Shown here: one piece after another, positions 11,224-26,261 of the stretch | Layout of the letters: every line of letters starts with the position of its first letter | Position numbering within the stretch: the stretch's first letter is position 1 | Assembly (NCBI GenBank): GCA_903916255.1 | Contig: CAIWVW010000036.1 | Coordinates: forward strand, 1 to 32,308 | Direction: 5' to 3' | DNA: 32,308 bases | Origin: an uncultured Bacteroidota bacterium | GTDB lineage: Bacteria > Bacteroidota > Bacteroidia > JABEUT01 | The notes under the pieces: model-generated | What the model was told of the DNA's origin: nothing | Seen by the model: the letters and a program-made list of their open reading frames with translations, nothing else | Database searches by the model: none | Program-made: the position numbers and the translations under genes

Positions 11224-11336
11224 TAGAAACTACCGAAGTAAAGCAGGGTAAAGCCAAACTTTAGTTATTCACTTTTTTTCAACAAACCCAACTTTTTAAG
11301 ATTTGCCGCAGATTCACAGTTTAAATTTAACTGCAA

Positions 11337-11412
11337 GTTGCCACAGATTACACAGATTAAAAATAGATATTTCATGCTACCACAAAGGGAAATCTGTTAA
11401 ATCTGTGGCAAC
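11337..11412. repeat. palindromic intergenic element between dnaN and the DUF4340 gene
   Basis: GTTGCCACAGATT (11337-11349) and AATCTGTGGCAAC (11400-11412) are perfect 13-base inverted arms around a 50-base centre. A related partial arm, ttgccgcagattcacag, lies at 11303-11319. It ends 8 bases before the stop-side end of the DUF4340 gene. It resembles non-coding palindromic repeats common in environmental Bacteroidota. Confidence 0.75.
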
Positions 11413-11419
11413 TTTGTAT

Positions 11420-12609: not shown

Positions 12610-13707
12610 TCATACATTAAACCGGAAGTGCATAATGTCGCCGTCTTTCACAAGGTACTCTTTGCCTTGAATCATCAGTTTGCCTACTTCGCGGCAAGCA
12701 GCTTCGGAACCTAACTTAATAAAGTCATCATAAGCTATTACTTCCGCTTTAATAAACCCTTTTTCAAAATCGGTATGGATAACTCCGGCCGCTTGCGGGG
12801 CGCGGTCTCCAACATGGATGGTCCAGGCACGCACTTCCACTTCCCCAACGGTGAAATAAGTGGAGAGGTTAAGCAAATGGTAGGCTGCTTTAATCAGTTT
12901 ATTTACGCCGGGTTCATCCAATCCTAAATCATCTAAAAAGATTTTACGGTCCTCGGCGCTTTCCAATTGGGTTATTTCGGCTTCAATTCCTGCATCAATA
13001 ATGAGGACTTCCGCATTTTCATCTTTTACAGCTTGCTTAACTAAATCCGTATACTTATTGCCTTTCAGTGAACTCTGGTCCACATTGCAGACATATAATA
13101 CGGGCTTAACAGTAAGCAAATGCAAATCGGCAATAACGGCTTTGTCTTCATCCGATAAAACTACTGTGCGGGCAGATTTTCCTTCTGACAGGGATTTGAA
13201 ATACATATCTAAAATTTCCTTTTCCTTTTGGGCTTGTTTGTCGGAACCGACTTTAGCCGCTTTAGATACGCGCTGCAATCTCTTTTCTACGGTTTCAAAA
13301 TCCTTCAATTGCAATTCAGTATCAATAATTTCTTTGTCGCGGATAGGGTTTACTCCTCCTTCTACGTGGATAACATTGGCATCATCGAAACAACGCAACA
13401 CATGTATAATGGCATTCGTATCACGGATATTTCCCAGGAACTGGTTACCCAATCCTTCACCTTTGCTGGCCCCTTTCACGAGGCCTGCAATATCCACAAT
13501 CTCAATGGTTGCAGGAACTATCTTTTGAGGATTGGCAATAGCTGCCAGTTTGGCAAGCCTGTCGTCCGGAACACTAATCACACCCACGTTCGGTTCTATT
13601 GTACAAAACGGAAAATTCGCCGCCTGCGCCTTCGCATTCGAAAGGCAATTAAACAAGGTAGATTTCCCCACATTCGGCAAACCTACTATACCACATTGTA
13701 AACCCAC
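12610..13707 (-). CDS. ychF: YchF/OLA1-type P-loop ATPase
   Basis: 365 residues, normal for this universally conserved Obg-related protein, which binds ATP in preference to GTP and associates with ribosomes. The Walker A motif is GLPNVGKST (8-16), switch II is DIAGLVKGASKGEGLGNQFL, and the G4-equivalent is VCNVDQ, not NKxD, as expected for YchF. The coiled-coil insertion and C-terminal TGS domain (AWTIHVGDRAPQAAGVIHTDF...GD.MHFRFNV) are complete. A -7 box lies 16 bases upstream, predicting a leader of only about 10 bases. Confidence 0.97.
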   Translation of the reverse strand: MGLQCGIVGLPNVGKSTLFNCLSNAKAQAANFPFCTIEPNVGVISVPDDRLAKLAAIANPQKIVPATIEIVDIAGLVKGASKGEGLGNQFLGNIRDTNAIIHVLRCFDDANVIHVEGGVNPIRDKEIIDTELQLKDFETVEKRLQRVSKAAKVGSDKQAQKEKEILDMYFKSLSEGKSARTVVLSDEDKAVIADLHLLTVKPVLYVCNVDQSSLKGNKYTDLVKQAVKDENAEVLIIDAGIEAEITQLESAEDRKIFLDDLGLDEPGVNKLIKAAYHLLNLSTYFTVGEVEVRAWTIHVGDRAPQAAGVIHTDFEKGFIKAEVIAYDDFIKLGSEAACREVGKLMIQGKEYLVKDGDIMHFRFNV

Positions 13708-13723
13708 TTTTTTAAAATTTTGG

Positions 13724-13731
13724 CAAAAATA
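13724..13731 (-). promoter_or_regulatory. -7 box for ychF
   Basis: TATTTTTG on the minus strand matches TAnnTTTG. It ends 16 bases before the ATG, predicting a very short leader. Confidence 0.45.
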
Positions 13732-13746
13732 GACAAAAACAGCTAT

Positions 13747-13770
13747 GAGAGATAAGAGATGAGAGATAAG
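13747..13770. repeat. purine-rich micro-repeat upstream of ychF
   Basis: gagagataagagatgagagataag, reiterated gagataag units 40-60 bases upstream of the ychF start. Similar in position to the other start-proximal micro-repeats. Confidence 0.45.
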
Positions 13771-13816
13771 CGGTAAAATGTAATCTAAGCGTCCCTAAAA
13801 ACCTTATCATTTCAAT

Positions 13817-13928
13817 AACCTTAGTAGAAAAAAACGCACAAGTAATTTGACCTTATTATCTTATTTTGAGGTGGAATAAGGTAATAAGGTTGTGTAGTAA
13901 GGGGGAATGGGGTTTTTCTACTAAGGTT
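13817..13928. repeat. 112-base nested palindrome
   Basis: Outer arms AACCTTAGTAGAAAAA (13817-13832) and TTTTTCTACTAAGGTT (13913-13928) match over 16 bases. Nested inside, 13850-13865 (ACCTTATTATCTTATT) pairs with 13875-13890 (AATAAGGTAATAAGGT) over 16 positions with one G-U, around a 9-base loop. It lies between ychF and the GloVer gene, 23 bases beyond the stop of the latter. No transposase gene is inside. Confidence 0.85.
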
Positions 13929-13950
13929 AAAGCACAAATCGCGACAGTCT

Positions 13951-15345
13951 TTATTTATCTATAACTAATTTACCGCCACCAATAATATTCCCGTTTATAT
14001 CAATAATTCTGTAAAGATAAATGCCATTGGGCTGAATGCTTAAGTCCATAGTTTTGTCACCCTTGGTAGAGTTAAGTGTCTCTTGGAAAACCTTTTGCCC
14101 AAGCACATCAAACACTTCAATATTCATTATCCGAGGCGCACTATTTGATATTATAAAAGTGAATATTCCACTTGAGGGATTTGGAGAAATATATACCGTA
14201 TTGCTCCTTACTGAAAAACCGCCAGTTGCTACGTTACTATCAGTAAAGCTAAATATAACACCTTCATCATTTACACCTCCCCAATAGGTCATCCCATATA
14301 GGGTATTTCCAGAAATTATTAATGAACCATAAGGATACTTACCATTAATAGTTCCATTAAAATCATACAAATCTCTATAGTCACTACCATCAGTTCTGAT
14401 TGAAAATATCACCCCTTCTCCATATGCACCGCCATCCGGCGTCATGCCATATAATAAATTGTTTGATAAAGCCAATGAACCATATGGACTGCTTCCATTA
14501 GTATCATTAAAATCTAATAACCTTGTAAATCGAGTTCCATTAGTTTGGATAGAAAACACCACCCCATCGTTATAAGTCCCGCCTGAGGTTGTCATCCCAT
14601 ATAAAGTATCGCCTGAAATAATTAAATTACCCTGAAGATCACTTCCATTTGAACCGTTAAAATCGTACAAATCTTTATAACCAGTGCCATCAATATGCAC
14701 AGAGAAAACATTACCATTACCATGGGTTCCCCCATAATATGACGTTCCATATAAAGTGTCTCCTGATGCAATAAGTGAACCAAGAGGCGCGTGTGCATTT
14801 GTTGTATTAAATACTACCAAATCTAAAAAGTTATTTCCATTGGATTGTATAGAAAATAAATTTCCATGACATGATGCCCATTGTGTCATTCCATAAAGAG
14901 TATTTCCTATAAGCAGCAGAGAGCCATTTGGTATAGCACCGGTTGTATTACCATTAAAATCTATTAGGTTATTATATCCACTGCCGTTTTCTTGAATTGA
15001 GAAAATGTTGCCCCATCCGCTATCACCTCCGCTAGGCGTCATTCCATAAAGAGTATTTCCTGACTTTATTAGATTACCCAAAGGAAAGGCCCCATTAGTA
15101 TCATTAAAATCCAGAAGTTTCCCAAAGTTTAAGCCAGAGGTACGAATACTAAAAACAACCCCATCCCCATAAATCCCCCCTCCGTAAGTCATTCCGAATA
15201 ATGTATCTCCTGATAGTGTTAAACTACCATAAGGATAATCTCCACTTGAAGTTCCGGTAAAATCAAATATTTTATGATATTGTCCCTTACAAGGTGTAAA
15301 GAATGTAATGAACAATATTATTATAACTAGTTGTGCTTTTCTCAG
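13951..15345 (-). CDS. T9SS type A protein with seven GloVer repeats
   Basis: Seven tandem repeats of about 50 residues have the core GSL..SGNTLYGMT..GG....GVIFSI followed by DFN.TNG, the choice-of-anchor GloVer-type repeat (TIGR03803-like), probably a beta-propeller-like surface domain. The last 80 or so residues (VYISPNPSSGIFTF ... EVFDVLGQKVF ... GIYLYRI) are a T9SS type A sorting domain. No ATG fits: the first open start is TTG at 15315, which truncates the signal peptide. The frame is open to 15369 (stop at 15370-15372), and from CTG 15345 it encodes a convincing signal peptide (RKAQLVIIILFITFF, then KGQ). I place the start there. Function unknown; surface or secreted. Confidence 0.8.
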   Translation of the reverse strand: MRKAQLVIIILFITFFTPCKGQYHKIFDFTGTSSGDYPYGSLTLSGDTLFGMTYGGGIYGDGVVFSIRTSGLNFGKLLDFNDTNGAFPLGNLIKSGNTLYGMTPSGGDSGWGNIFSIQENGSGYNNLIDFNGNTTGAIPNGSLLLIGNTLYGMTQWASCHGNLFSIQSNGNNFLDLVVFNTTNAHAPLGSLIASGDTLYGTSYYGGTHGNGNVFSVHIDGTGYKDLYDFNGSNGSDLQGNLIISGDTLYGMTTSGGTYNDGVVFSIQTNGTRFTRLLDFNDTNGSSPYGSLALSNNLLYGMTPDGGAYGEGVIFSIRTDGSDYRDLYDFNGTINGKYPYGSLIISGNTLYGMTYWGGVNDEGVIFSFTDSNVATGGFSVRSNTVYISPNPSSGIFTFIISNSAPRIMNIEVFDVLGQKVFQETLNSTKGDKTMDLSIQPNGIYLYRIIDINGNIIGGGKLVIDK

Positions 15346-15349
15346 CTTA

Positions 15350-15357
15350 CAAATGTA
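15350..15357 (-). promoter_or_regulatory. -7 box directly before the GloVer gene
   Basis: TACATTTG on the minus strand matches TAnnTTTG. The predicted transcription start falls on or next to the CTG at 15345-15343, so the mRNA would be leaderless if that codon is used. Confidence 0.45.
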
Positions 15358-15372
15358 ATAATTTCTGCCTTA

Positions 15373-15445
15373 GATGACGCGGATTATTATGATTATTTAA
15401 GACAAAATCTGTGAGAATCTTATTAAATCTGCGTCATCCGCGTTC
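15373..15445. repeat. second member of the 12513-12606 palindrome family
   Basis: GATGACGCGGATT (15373-15385) pairs with AATCTGCGTCATC (15426-15438) with one mismatch; the right side continues CGCGTTC, as in the 12513 element. The centres also resemble each other (tgattatttaagacaaaatc against gattttttttatgacaaatc). Confidence 0.72.
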
Positions 15446-15525
15446 CATTGTTCCCATCAAAAAATTACTTTTCAACATTCCCCGCTTGTTTTCAACAAAG
15501 GGAATTAGGGGTGGTTAAATTGCCA

Positions 15526-19664: not shown

Positions 19665-20126
19665 ATGCCAGGTATAGCAGTCTTTCCCGGTTCGTTTGAC
19701 CCTGTTACAAAAGGCCATGAGTCTATTGTGGAAAGGGCATTGCCTTTGTTCGATTCCATTATTGTTGCAATTGGGAGCAATTCTACTAAAACATCAATGT
19801 TCCCGGTGGAGAAGCGCAAACAATGGCTGGAGCAGACTTTTGCAAAACATTCCAACGTGAAGGTTATTGACTATGCGACCCTAACGATTGACTTTTGCCG
19901 CAAACATGGCGCTAACTATATTTTGCGAGGCTTGCGCACCGTTACCGATTTTGAATTTGAAAGCAATATAGCGCGGATGAACCGCATGATGGAACCTTCT
20001 ATTGAAACTATTTTTATGCTAACGCTGCCTGAGTTTTCTGCTATTCATTCCACCATTATCCGTGAAATAATTAAGAACGGCGGAGATGTGAGCCAGTTTA
20101 TTCCGGAAGCAGTTAAAAGTTTATAA
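19665..20126 (+). CDS. coaD: phosphopantetheine adenylyltransferase
   Basis: 153 residues, the usual size. It converts 4'-phosphopantetheine and ATP to dephospho-CoA, the penultimate step of CoA synthesis. The nucleotidyltransferase motif GSFDPVTKGH (9-18) has the T/HxGH signature; NYILRGLRTVTDFEFE (84-99) and HSTIIREI (128-135) are the other conserved blocks. The downstream TlpA-like gene begins inside a repeat that overlaps the coaD stop codon, so the two genes probably share a transcript. Confidence 0.97.
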   Translation: MPGIAVFPGSFDPVTKGHESIVERALPLFDSIIVAIGSNSTKTSMFPVEKRKQWLEQTFAKHSNVKVIDYATLTIDFCRKHGANYILRGLRTVTDFEFESNIARMNRMMEPSIETIFMLTLPEFSAIHSTIIREIIKNGGDVSQFIPEAVKSL

Positions 20127-20166
20127 AGTTGAAAGTTCATAAAGTTGAAAGTTCATAAAGTTAAAA
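20125..20166 (+). repeat. 16-base tandem repeat containing the start codon of the next gene
   Basis: aaagttgaaagttcat occurs at 20125-20140 and 20141-20156, with a partial third unit aaagttaaaa. The first copy overlaps the coaD stop, and the second contains the TTG start at 20145. Confidence 0.8.
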
Positions 20167-21578
20167 TCGGCGGGATTATCAGGTTCGTACTGGCTTTCTA
20201 CTTTATGAACTTTATAACTTTTAGTTTATTTGCGCAGCCTGCTACTATAGAAGGATATGCTCCCGCTTATAAAGGAAAGACAGTGTATCTTTCTACCTGT
20301 AAAGATTTTATTACATACACTCCTTTGCAAATTGAATCGGCAACAATTAGTGACAGCGGAAAATTCAAATTCCAGTTGGATGATTTGAAACGTACTACCT
20401 ATGTATACTTAACCATCCAAAACTATAAAGGAGATTTATATGTGGTTCCCGGAAACTATTACCGCGTGGTTTTTCCAGCGCCCGACAGCGACCATTACCA
20501 AAACCAATATATAGAGCATAAAGTAAATCTGGAACTATATATTGACGATAGCGCAGAAGTGAATAATCTCATCATGGATTTTAATACACAGTTTGAGAAA
20601 TTCTGGGTAAAAACATATACTTATTTCCTGAAAAAGGAAGCTCCGCGTTATGTCGATAGCTTTTATACTGCCATGCTCCAACGCTATAAAACCATTCATA
20701 ATCCTGACTTTACAGGTTATATGACATACACGGTAGCCGAAATAAGTAATAATATTTTAGAGGGACAAAAAACGCTCGGCGAAAAATATTTGAAAGGGAA
20801 ACCCATCCTGTATAACAATTATGAATACATGCAATTCTTTAATGATTACTTTAAAGATTACATGCAGAATTGCACTACTACCCGCGAGGGCGGCGACATT
20901 AATAAATATATAGCCAAGCCCGATTATCCCGGTCTGATGGAGGTATTAAAGATTAACCGCCTGTTGCGGAATGATTCGCTTTGCGAGTTGGTTTTGCTCA
21001 AAGGCCTGTACGAGTTTTACTACAGTGGCGGCTACGACCAGGAAAATATTATCAGTTTGCTGAAAACAATTTCAGGCACAACCAAAATAGAGGAGGATAA
21101 AAAAATTGCCGATGATATGCTGGCCTCTTTTTCGGGAGTGGTTCGCGGAGGCGGTGCGCCTGATTTTGCGTTGAAAGATTCCAAAGGAGAAGTAAGCAGT
21201 ATTATCGATTTTCGGGGAAAGCTGGTTTACCTGTGTTTTTTTAAAACGACCAGCAGCGCATCTATCAGCCAGATGGAGGTATTGCCTGCATTGTATAAAC
21301 AATATGGAAAGAAAATTAACTTTGTCTTTATCAGTGAAGATGAAAACTACGATGATTTGATGAATTTCCTGAAAGCAAATAAAAGCTTTACGTGGAATTT
21401 TTTGTGGGATGAAAAGCATAAAGTAATGCAGCAGTATGACGTGAAAACATTGCCCGAATATTTCATTGTAGGTACAAGTGGAAAATTCCTGCGCTCCCCT
21501 GCCGATGACCCAAGCCATGGTATTGAAAGCACATTTAACGACTTAACAAGGCCCGTAAAAGAAAAAGAAAAAAAATAA
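20145..21578 (+). CDS. exported thioredoxin-fold protein lacking the CxxC motif
   Basis: 477 residues. A signal peptide (core IIRFVLAFYFMNFITFSLF) ends near FAQ. The N-terminal part (about 33-110) resembles the DUF4369-like domain often fused to TlpA-type proteins, with a helical middle (130-330). The C-terminal AhpC/TSA-Redoxin fold starts at GAPDFALKDSKG (337-347). At the position of the FWATWCGPC active site it reads FFKTTSSAS (365-373), so both catalytic cysteines are replaced by serine (S370, S373). Thiol redox activity is therefore unlikely; a binding role is possible. The only open start is TTG 20145, since an in-frame stop lies at 20130. It probably sits in the periplasm. Operon with coaD and the S9 protease. 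Confidence 0.82.
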   Translation: MKVHKVKIGGIIRFVLAFYFMNFITFSLFAQPATIEGYAPAYKGKTVYLSTCKDFITYTPLQIESATISDSGKFKFQLDDLKRTTYVYLTIQNYKGDLYVVPGNYYRVVFPAPDSDHYQNQYIEHKVNLELYIDDSAEVNNLIMDFNTQFEKFWVKTYTYFLKKEAPRYVDSFYTAMLQRYKTIHNPDFTGYMTYTVAEISNNILEGQKTLGEKYLKGKPILYNNYEYMQFFNDYFKDYMQNCTTTREGGDINKYIAKPDYPGLMEVLKINRLLRNDSLCELVLLKGLYEFYYSGGYDQENIISLLKTISGTTKIEEDKKIADDMLASFSGVVRGGGAPDFALKDSKGEVSSIIDFRGKLVYLCFFKTTSSASISQMEVLPALYKQYGKKINFVFISEDENYDDLMNFLKANKSFTWNFLWDEKHKVMQQYDVKTLPEYFIVGTSGKFLRSPADDPSHGIESTFNDLTRPVKEKEKK

Positions 21579-25634: not shown

Positions 25635-25642
25635 TAAAATTA

Positions 25643-25722
25643 ATTATGAGTTATAAATTATGAGTTATGACCAATATAGCGATAGTTATAGGCTTATAAC
25701 TTATAACTCATAATTTATAACT
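25643..25722. repeat. 20-bp perfect inverted repeat built of micro-repeats
   Basis: The arm agttataaattatgagttat (25649-25668) is exactly inverted at 25703-25722, with a 34-base centre. It fills the gap between the dioxygenase stop and the decarboxylase start, so the transcript could fold into a long hairpin in the middle of the operon. Confidence 0.85.
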
Positions 25723-25724
25723 AA

Positions 25725-26261
25725 TTACGTGGTTGGTTCGGTAACAAAGCGTTTGTCCGCTTCCATCACATGCCCGCATTTTTTGCAGGTTCTCAATTCT
25801 CCGGAATTATAAAACCGTTTGAAAACAGGGATAAAATCTTTTTCTATACTGGTCAGGTAAAAATGTTCTTCATATAATTTGTTGTTGCATTTTTCGCAAA
25901 ACCACATCAACCCATCATTTTCATCGGGATGGCGTTTGCGCTCCATAACTAACCCAACAGTGTTTGCAGGGCGGTTTGGCGAGTGCGGAGTATTGGGCGG
26001 GAGCAGAAAAATATCGCCTTCGTTCAACGGAACATCCACAGCCTTTCCATCCTCTTGTATGCGGACTATAATATTGCCTTCCAACTGGTAGAAAAACTCT
26101 TCGCTCATATTGAAATGGTAATCTTTGCGGGCGTTTGGGCCGCCAACCACCATTACAATAAATTCGGTGTCTTCATAAACCACTTTGTTGCCGACAGGAG
26201 GTTTCAGTAAATGGCGGTTGTCATCTATCCATTTTTTGAAATTGAACGGGCGCTTTATCAT
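25725..26261 (-). CDS. nbaC: 3-hydroxyanthranilate 3,4-dioxygenase
   Basis: 178 residues from ATG 26261; a TTG ten codons upstream (26291) is open but less likely. It opens the ring of 3-hydroxyanthranilate to aminocarboxymuconate semialdehyde. Cupin iron ligands are H49, E55 and H93; substrate-binding Arg are R45 and R97. Two C-x2-C pairs (C122/C125, C159/C162) make the rubredoxin-like iron site of bacterial enzymes. Spacing closely follows the family. It lies directly upstream of the ACMSD gene, forming a two-step kynurenine-degradation module. The other genes of the pathway are not in the window. Confidence 0.95.
   Translation of the reverse strand: MIKRPFNFKKWIDDNRHLLKPPVGNKVVYEDTEFIVMVVGGPNARKDYHFNMSEEFFYQLEGNIIVRIQEDGKAVDVPLNEGDIFLLPPNTPHSPNRPANTVGLVMERKRHPDENDGLMWFCEKCNNKLYEEHFYLTSIEKDFIPVFKRFYNSGELRTCKKCGHVMEADKRFVTEPTT

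Follow-up and report, generated by a model that had tools for sequence, protein, structure and literature searches.

A nested double palindrome in a Bacteroidota genome is very probably a gene-less derivative of an IS200-like element with two-box inverted ends

INTRODUCTION

Known HUH/Y1 enzymes cut and join single DNA strands held in hairpins. To our knowledge, the hairpins of the known IS200/IS605 members are subterminal, and terminal inverted repeats are absent from them. Subterminal structures of IS200/IS605 elements are also described in the classification of TnpA-Y1 proteins by Quentin et al. (2018, PMC6006769), in the sections of that work used here; for TnpA-Y1 subclass 1.2 the same sections list no REP and describe the proteins as generally without terminal IS200 structures. 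With neither REPs nor, in general, IS-like ends on record for subclass 1.2, the DNA on which its enzymes act had been left open. Y1 genes between terminal inverted repeats have been described as TIRYTs or TIRtrons (Di Nocera et al. 2013, PMC3733652). According to the consulted sections on these elements, the 26 published TIRYTs correspond to subclasses 2.1, 2.2 and 2.5 (PMC6006769), and many have GGGGWSAS repeats. A third described system is that of the REPINs and their RAYT transposases (Bertels and Rainey 2011, PMC3116915).

The window analyzed here, the whole stretch of DNA under study (32,308 nt), is the entire contig C36 of a 149-contig, 3.74 Mb genome of an uncultured Bacteroidota bacterium. 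An initial annotation of its sequence had pointed out a nested double palindrome of 112 bases next to ychF and had offered three readings of it: a non-autonomous mobile element, a structured RNA or a transcription barrier. Here we compare this element with its copies in the same genome and elsewhere, and with the transposase gene found between the same ends.

RESULTS

Structure of the window element

A repeat search of the window placed the outer arms of the element at 13816-13832 and 13913-13929 (17 nt, 100% complementary) and the inner arms at 13850-13865 and 13875-13890 (16 nt, 94%), the sole non-Watson-Crick position of the latter being a T opposite a G. The perfect 16-base outer arms of the initial annotation were thus confirmed, each being one base longer outward (17 bp), and so was its second 16-position stem with one G-U pair. 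The element was also rightly called gene-free, as no ORF of at least 60 aa overlaps it.

Read from the left element end, the outer arm at 13816-13832 (+ strand) comprises box A and the first bases beyond it, TAACCTTAGTAGAAAAA, and is followed by what remains of the left spacer (13833-13849), which separates box A from box B. The left inner arm at 13850-13865 (+ strand) is an imperfectly doubled box B, ACCTTATTATCTTATT, which in relatives appears as the tandem ACCTTATTACCTTATT. The halves meet in the loop at 13866-13874, the place that is taken by a transposase gene in long copies. The right half repeats this arrangement on the - strand, with box B as its reverse complement at 13875-13890, the right spacer remainder at 13891-13912, and box A as its reverse complement at 13913-13929, the right element end. 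Within the right spacer, positions 13894-13905 have the sequence GTAGTAAGGGGG, which is like the box A reverse complement and is possibly a decayed extra box.

Perfect arms of 16 nt at a distance of at most 120 bp were found in none of 100 window shuffles, compared with seven observed, a number that counts in the other palindromes of the window. Strong inverted repeats are also present at 25639-25725, 20116-20222, 11335-11414 and 543-604, with sequences unlike that of the element.

Copies in the same genome and in relatives

A DNA search of the own genome with the element gave box-sized matches on many contigs, of which the stronger places were read; weak matches (about 26 to 30 bits; C2, C4, C28, C35 and others) are outside the copy count. 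Fourteen compact elements were found, on C36, C79, C10, C91 (three), C116, C146, C69 (two), C103, C34, C139 and C6, a modest copy number. The initial annotation had suggested a search for other copies and would have given up its reading for a single-copy sequence, an objection that falls away here. A covariance model derived from the compact copies recovered these 14 places, with 27 matches on the two strands, and no extra one among the best 40 of 2278 own-genome candidates, which were scored under strict filters; given these filters and at most 40 scored candidates per genome, weak copies may be missed. C142 was rejected as a copy because it holds a single box-like stretch without a partner. 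Besides the compact left-right form, right-then-left pairs are present at C33, C34 and on either side of the C79 transposase gene. The three elements of C91 (182-554, locus L056 of the own genome, G000) stand in tandem about 145 bp apart with similar intervening stretches, that is, as a duplicated unit which includes the element.

With the covariance model, copies were found in five of 99 relatives, namely in G002, which belongs to the same genus, G017 (three), G036, G040 and G068.

Anatomy of the ends

The element is built of two halves of about 45 bp, one at either end, each consisting of box A (AACCTTAGTAGAAAA), about 24 nt, and box B (ACCTTATTA); one half is the reverse complement of the other. 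Box B lies about 34 nt inward of box A and is often doubled. Since the two ends are inverted, the gene-less compact form reads as a nested double palindrome. The majority consensus of the own-genome compact copies is TTTTAACCTTAGTAGAAAA ... ACCTTATTAATAAGGT ... TTTTCTACTAAGGTTAAAA. Across 135 element ends, conservation starts at A(-1)ACCTTA and drops steeply toward the outside, where T is mildly preferred at -3 to -5; the conservation of the boxes is partly by choice, because the DNA pattern used for the collection demanded exact AACCTTARTAGAA and ACCTTATTA within one half. The set chosen by this pattern also underlies the counts on end conservation, spacers, box A agreement and target duplication. 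GTAG is part of box A, yet in the folds pairing runs between the two halves.

In 50 elements, the left spacers span 20-29 nt (mostly 22-27, counted from the end of the 10-nt box) and the right spacers 21-30 nt (mostly 21-27, counted from the 10-nt box); from box to box, the compact elements measure 81-156 bp. The complementarity of left and right spacers was at the level of chance, with a duplex mean of -4.15 as against -4.27 ± 0.20 for re-dealt pairs (C91b, C91c, L203, L148 and second pairs per locus left out), indicating that pairing is confined to the boxes. In 68 elements, the variable letters in box A, at positions 7, 10 and 11, match at the two ends of an element more often than in shuffles, with kinship ignored and with C91b, C91c, L203, L148, second pairs and two of 11 further loci left out. 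The ends differ at position 7 in 10 of the 68. Such agreement is as expected if one enzyme reads both ends.

The sequences flanking the boxes were slightly more complementary than shuffles, with a mean of 4.06 out of 10 versus 3.59 ± 0.20 and 25 of 2000 shuffles as high; a few loci show TCTTCA..TGAAGA. Flank pairing was rejected as a feature of the element, as the excess is located at -3 to -5 and was read as the T preference.

A Y1 transposase gene between the same ends

In the long copies on C30 and C79, the halves are about 470 bp apart and enclose an ORF for a protein of about 150 aa. Both proteins match Pfam Y1_Tnp (PF01797) with 64.6 and 57.6 bits (cut-off 23), and they are 82% identical to each other. 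The own genome has seven PF01797 matches in total, of which only those of C30 and C79 lie between box pairs; the gene on C106 has box-like matches nearby, without box B and without a flanking pair. Against the NCBIfam IS200 model NF033573 (cut-off 55), the C79 protein scored 57.2 bits and the C30 protein 47.4 bits. Against the RAYT model NF047646, C79 reached 22.4 bits versus a cut-off of 80, and C30 gave no match at an E-value of 0.001. The HxH and tyrosine motifs are invariant in seven aligned proteins, and WQ is present in six of them, C30 having LQ. The TnpA proteins of IS608 and ISDra2 were among the best structural matches of the predicted fold (a modest model, mean pLDDT 71), and the REP transposase 4er8 was a weaker one.

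A protein with 80% identity is located between the same ends in G068. In G002, G017, G036 and G040, compact copies are present, no close Y1 relative was found, and none of the Y1 genes read there has an exact box pair.

Association of the gene with the ends

The link between gene and ends was approached by two independent searches. The DNA pattern of one half was run over a collection of genome contigs and matched at least 115 stretches, for which 80 loci are listed. Among these 80 loci, 41 contain only compact left-right elements, 11 only right-left pairs and 22 a single half, whereas four are long left-right pairs and two are mixtures that include a long pair. All six long pairs among the loci listed (260-700 bp apart) hold this Y1 gene or its remains. 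The gene is open in L144, L152 (from Ferruginibacter paludis) and L183 (71-82% identity) and damaged in L189, where the tyrosine motif is missing and stops occur near the end; L136 and L172 have gene pieces only, the L172 match comprising 18 residues. In L187, from a Calditrichales MAG, the gene is present and the ends are degenerate. Halves alternate as right-left-right-left arrays around the Y1 gene in L183 (80-1080) and L189 (6330-7720), in the manner of BIME clusters.

The second search used the protein profile alone, in 395 genomes of the phylum, and yielded eight new relatives in eight genomes. Box A with at most one mismatch was present on both sides in seven of the eight; the remaining one, L288, lies near a contig end and has box A on one side. 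In L283-L286, L288 and L289, box A ends in TAA instead of TAG on at least one side.

When 66 Y1 rows were compared, 14 of the 16 clade rows proved to have box A at both flanks, versus none of the 50 others (four of them duplicates), seven of which have one box. Seven of the 16 clade rows had been found through the boxes (C79, C30, L144, L152, L183, L187 and L189), and among those found by protein, eight of nine have boxes on both sides. The 16 clade rows form one branch with a support of 100/100 in a tree of 59 Y1 rows, calculated without the four duplicates and three rows shorter than 120 aa. The motif Y[IV].NQ..HH was matched by 14 of the 16 clade proteins, L189 and L287 deviating. At the level of sequence, the DNA-pattern and protein searches agree on the link between the gene and the ends.

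Inverted flanking units of another build were observed around other Bacteroidota Y1 genes of similar motif (L074, L075, L076, L085, L088, and C111 in G000, which is L279), composed of a hairpin (e.g. GTCCC..GGGAC), about 10 nt and RTAG. REP-like ends in subclass 1.2 may be wider than reported.

Besides Bacteroidota, the record titles among the listed pattern-scan matches name KSB1, Calditrichales, Kapabacterium, Neomarinimicrobiota, Chloroherpeton and Desulfococcaceae, labels that can include binning errors, above all for MAGs. Among the matches listed, L187 is the only one outside Bacteroidota in which the gene was seen. Spread by plasmids or phages found no support, tblastn giving no match in plasmids at 1e-30 or in phages at 1e-20. 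A scan of viral contigs with the 16-mer arm gave 32 stretches, mostly chance matches; two contained another exact box A at a distance of up to 700 bp, and in neither was there an exact box B alongside. One contig filed as viral (L042:4584-4699, IMG/VR 3300000227_000370) has a box A pair about 116 bp across and no exact box B.

Genomic placement of the element

The gene next to the window element (13951-15315, - strand) encodes a protein with the C-terminal secretion sorting domain PF18962, and the distance from the element to the start of its stop codon is 21 bp. In G002, ychF and the transketolase gene are adjacent: homology ends at window position 13762 and resumes at 15463, with 71 bp in between in G002, so that a stretch of about 1.7 kb (13763-15462) containing both the element and the 13951-15315 gene is missing there. 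The transketolase gene adjoins ychF in five of the seven genus loci read (G002, G003, G009, G008 and G006). A match to the 13951-15315 protein is missing from all seven, and the five gaps between ychF and transketolase are all free of box A at up to one mismatch; the element and the gene are therefore absent from the relatives that were read. As the stretch missing from G002 includes the neighboring gene, the comparison dates the locus and not the element alone. The comparison with an empty site, suggested in the initial annotation, accordingly succeeded at the level of genes and stopped short of a base-precise site: three genus searches found the orthologous genes, and the gaps between them are too diverged for such a site.

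DISCUSSION

From the sequence comparisons above, the window element is very probably a non-autonomous mobile element that consists of the two joined ends of an autonomous IS200-like HUH/Y1 transposase element. The first guess of the initial annotation is supported by the 14 compact own-genome copies, by the copies elsewhere and by the gene-bearing partner with the same ends. As in MITEs, the ends are common with the gene-bearing copy, the gene is absent, and the element is multi-copy (14 compact and two gene-bearing); forms with a decayed gene between such ends (L136, L172 and L189) are also found. The best reading is that of a REPIN/MITE-like element which would be mobilized by a Y1 transposase of the subclass-1.2 type whose own gene has two-box terminal inverted repeats. 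To be weighed against this reading are the modest copy number, the four genomes (G002, G017, G036 and G040) in which compact copies and no close Y1 relative were found, the differences between the ends at box A position 7, the C30 score below the NCBIfam IS200 cut-off, the modest structure model, and the overlap of two compact copies with small predicted ORFs (C146, 78 aa, and C103, 144 aa).

Instead, the elements could form a REP-like family that has been domesticated and is retained because it serves the host, the transposase then being a maintenance enzyme and not a selfish element. The pairs in both orders and the alternating arrays, which resemble REP dimers and BIMEs, and the low copy number of the transposase are consistent with such a role, but the transposase is patchy (nine of the 395 phylum genomes at an E-value of 1e-45, the own genome included), its two copies in the own genome have diverged (82% identical), it is present in a contig assigned to another phylum (L187), and decayed copies exist. 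As this is the pattern of a mobile element, we consider domestication unlikely.

A structured RNA, or a 3'-end hairpin that stabilizes or terminates the mRNA of the 13951-15315 gene, with the repeats kept for that role, would account for two observations. The RNA fold of the element has -42.4 kcal/mol versus -21.8 ± 3.6 in 200 dinucleotide shuffles (z -5.8, none as low), and folding is strong on both strands, with z-scores of -7.7 and -7.5 for the two DNA strands. In addition, with mechanically predicted ORFs and with C91 entered once, 11 of 16 own-genome places (compact, right-left and gene-bearing ones pooled) lie at most 70 bp from a stop codon pointing at them; for random extragenic positions in these stretches the share is 27% (p 0.0007). 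The RNA reading is nevertheless quite improbable: the whole window has no Rfam match at gathering score, the spacers between the boxes pair no better than chance, and an RNA does not explain the same halves around a transposase gene. The structured-RNA guess of the initial annotation is disfavored by the first two of these results, and its transcription barrier by a search of 13400-14300 that found no intrinsic terminator, i.e. no G+C-rich stem followed by a T run, a result that also speaks against the hairpin as a terminator. A barrier to transcription may be a side effect of the element.

It is hardly credible that the ends belong to an unrelated DDE-type transposon, as its double-stranded terminal inverted repeats, with the Y1 gene as a mere passenger. 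In favor of this reading, the symmetric two-box ends resemble classical TIRs and the boxes are conserved without spacer pairing; against it, all six long pairs among the 80 loci listed have this Y1 gene or its remains, both ends are present in eight of nine clade members found by protein, and no direct repeats of 2-9 bp above shuffles flank 52 compact copies. The last test, which had been suggested in the initial annotation and found the target duplications absent, covered boundaries 0-6 bases outside ACCTTA, with printed lengths of 2, 4, 6 and 9, and left out C91b, C91c, L203, L148, second pairs, long pairs and elements at most 25 bases from a locus end; a DDE-type transposon with target duplication was rejected on this result. 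A lack of target duplication fits a Y1 enzyme. The double palindrome of an integron attC site was also considered and rejected, in view of the distance of about 34 nt between box A and box B and of the Y1 gene between the halves in long copies.

If the element is a derivative of the Y1 element, the transposase of C30 and/or C79 would recognize the paired boxes, most likely in single-stranded DNA, with box A paired to box A and box B to box B, cut through its tyrosine and paste the element elsewhere. By analogy with characterized enzymes, the compact element would fold in single-stranded DNA through pairing of its boxes and be processed in trans. As known IS200/IS605 elements have no terminal inverted repeats, single-strand chemistry at the present ends is proposed by this analogy. 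Copies might be common just downstream of stop codons because insertions at such places would be nearly harmless, or because the T-richness of gene ends would make them favored targets.

We further propose, tentatively and with rather more doubt than confidence, that these elements are a separate group in which an IS200-type single-strand transposase acts on symmetric two-box terminal inverted repeats in place of subterminal hairpins, an arrangement that would make the two strands, and likewise the two ends, equivalent, that the group has spread between phyla, and that its gene-less double-palindrome derivatives are widespread and undescribed. The fixed two-box ends, with gene-bearing and gene-less copies and the same pairing of gene and ends in distant genomes, offer this enzyme group a concrete candidate substrate that can be tested in vitro, and with it the question of whether a hairpin that folds by itself is required at each end by Y1 enzymes. 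They would also explain a class of intergenic palindromes otherwise taken for terminators or for RNAs of no known kind.

Among the described systems, the IS200/IS605 elements IS608 and ISDra2 share with the present ones the HUH/Y1 catalytic motifs, the fold and the lack of target duplication, and differ in that the elements described here have two-box terminal inverted repeats. By its motifs the protein belongs with TnpA-Y1 subclass 1.2, judging from the consulted sections of PMC6006769: it has the Y---Q--HH signature (here YILNQPEHH), WQ, a length of about 150 aa, a low copy number and a Bacteroidota host. Unlike subclass 1.2 as presented in those sections, the genes described here have two-box inverted ends and gene-less derivatives. 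In the open-access literature covered by partial listings, we found no description of box A/B ends for this transposase group.

Similar to the TIRYTs, as far as the excerpts of PMC3733652 describe them, the present Y1 gene is enclosed by terminal inverted repeats whose dispersed family includes dimers and clusters. Here, in contrast, the protein has subclass-1.2 motifs, with a YILNQ signature and not the class 2 Y---NP of the published TIRYT groups, and the ends have ACCTTA boxes. In form, REPINs are closest to the element, according to the available portions of PMC3116915: both are short, mostly extragenic inverted doublets, capable of forming a hairpin and tied to a Y1 gene with matching flanks. 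Unlike in the REPIN/RAYT system, the single half here is without a hairpin of its own and the protein is below the RAYT NCBIfam cut-off; also lacking is a 5' GT[AG]G at the base of a hairpin formed by the half itself, as in a REP sequence. Terminal inverted repeats around Y1 genes were already known; what is new is their two-box form around the gene of a subclass-1.2-type transposase, together with derivatives that lack the gene and read as double palindromes.
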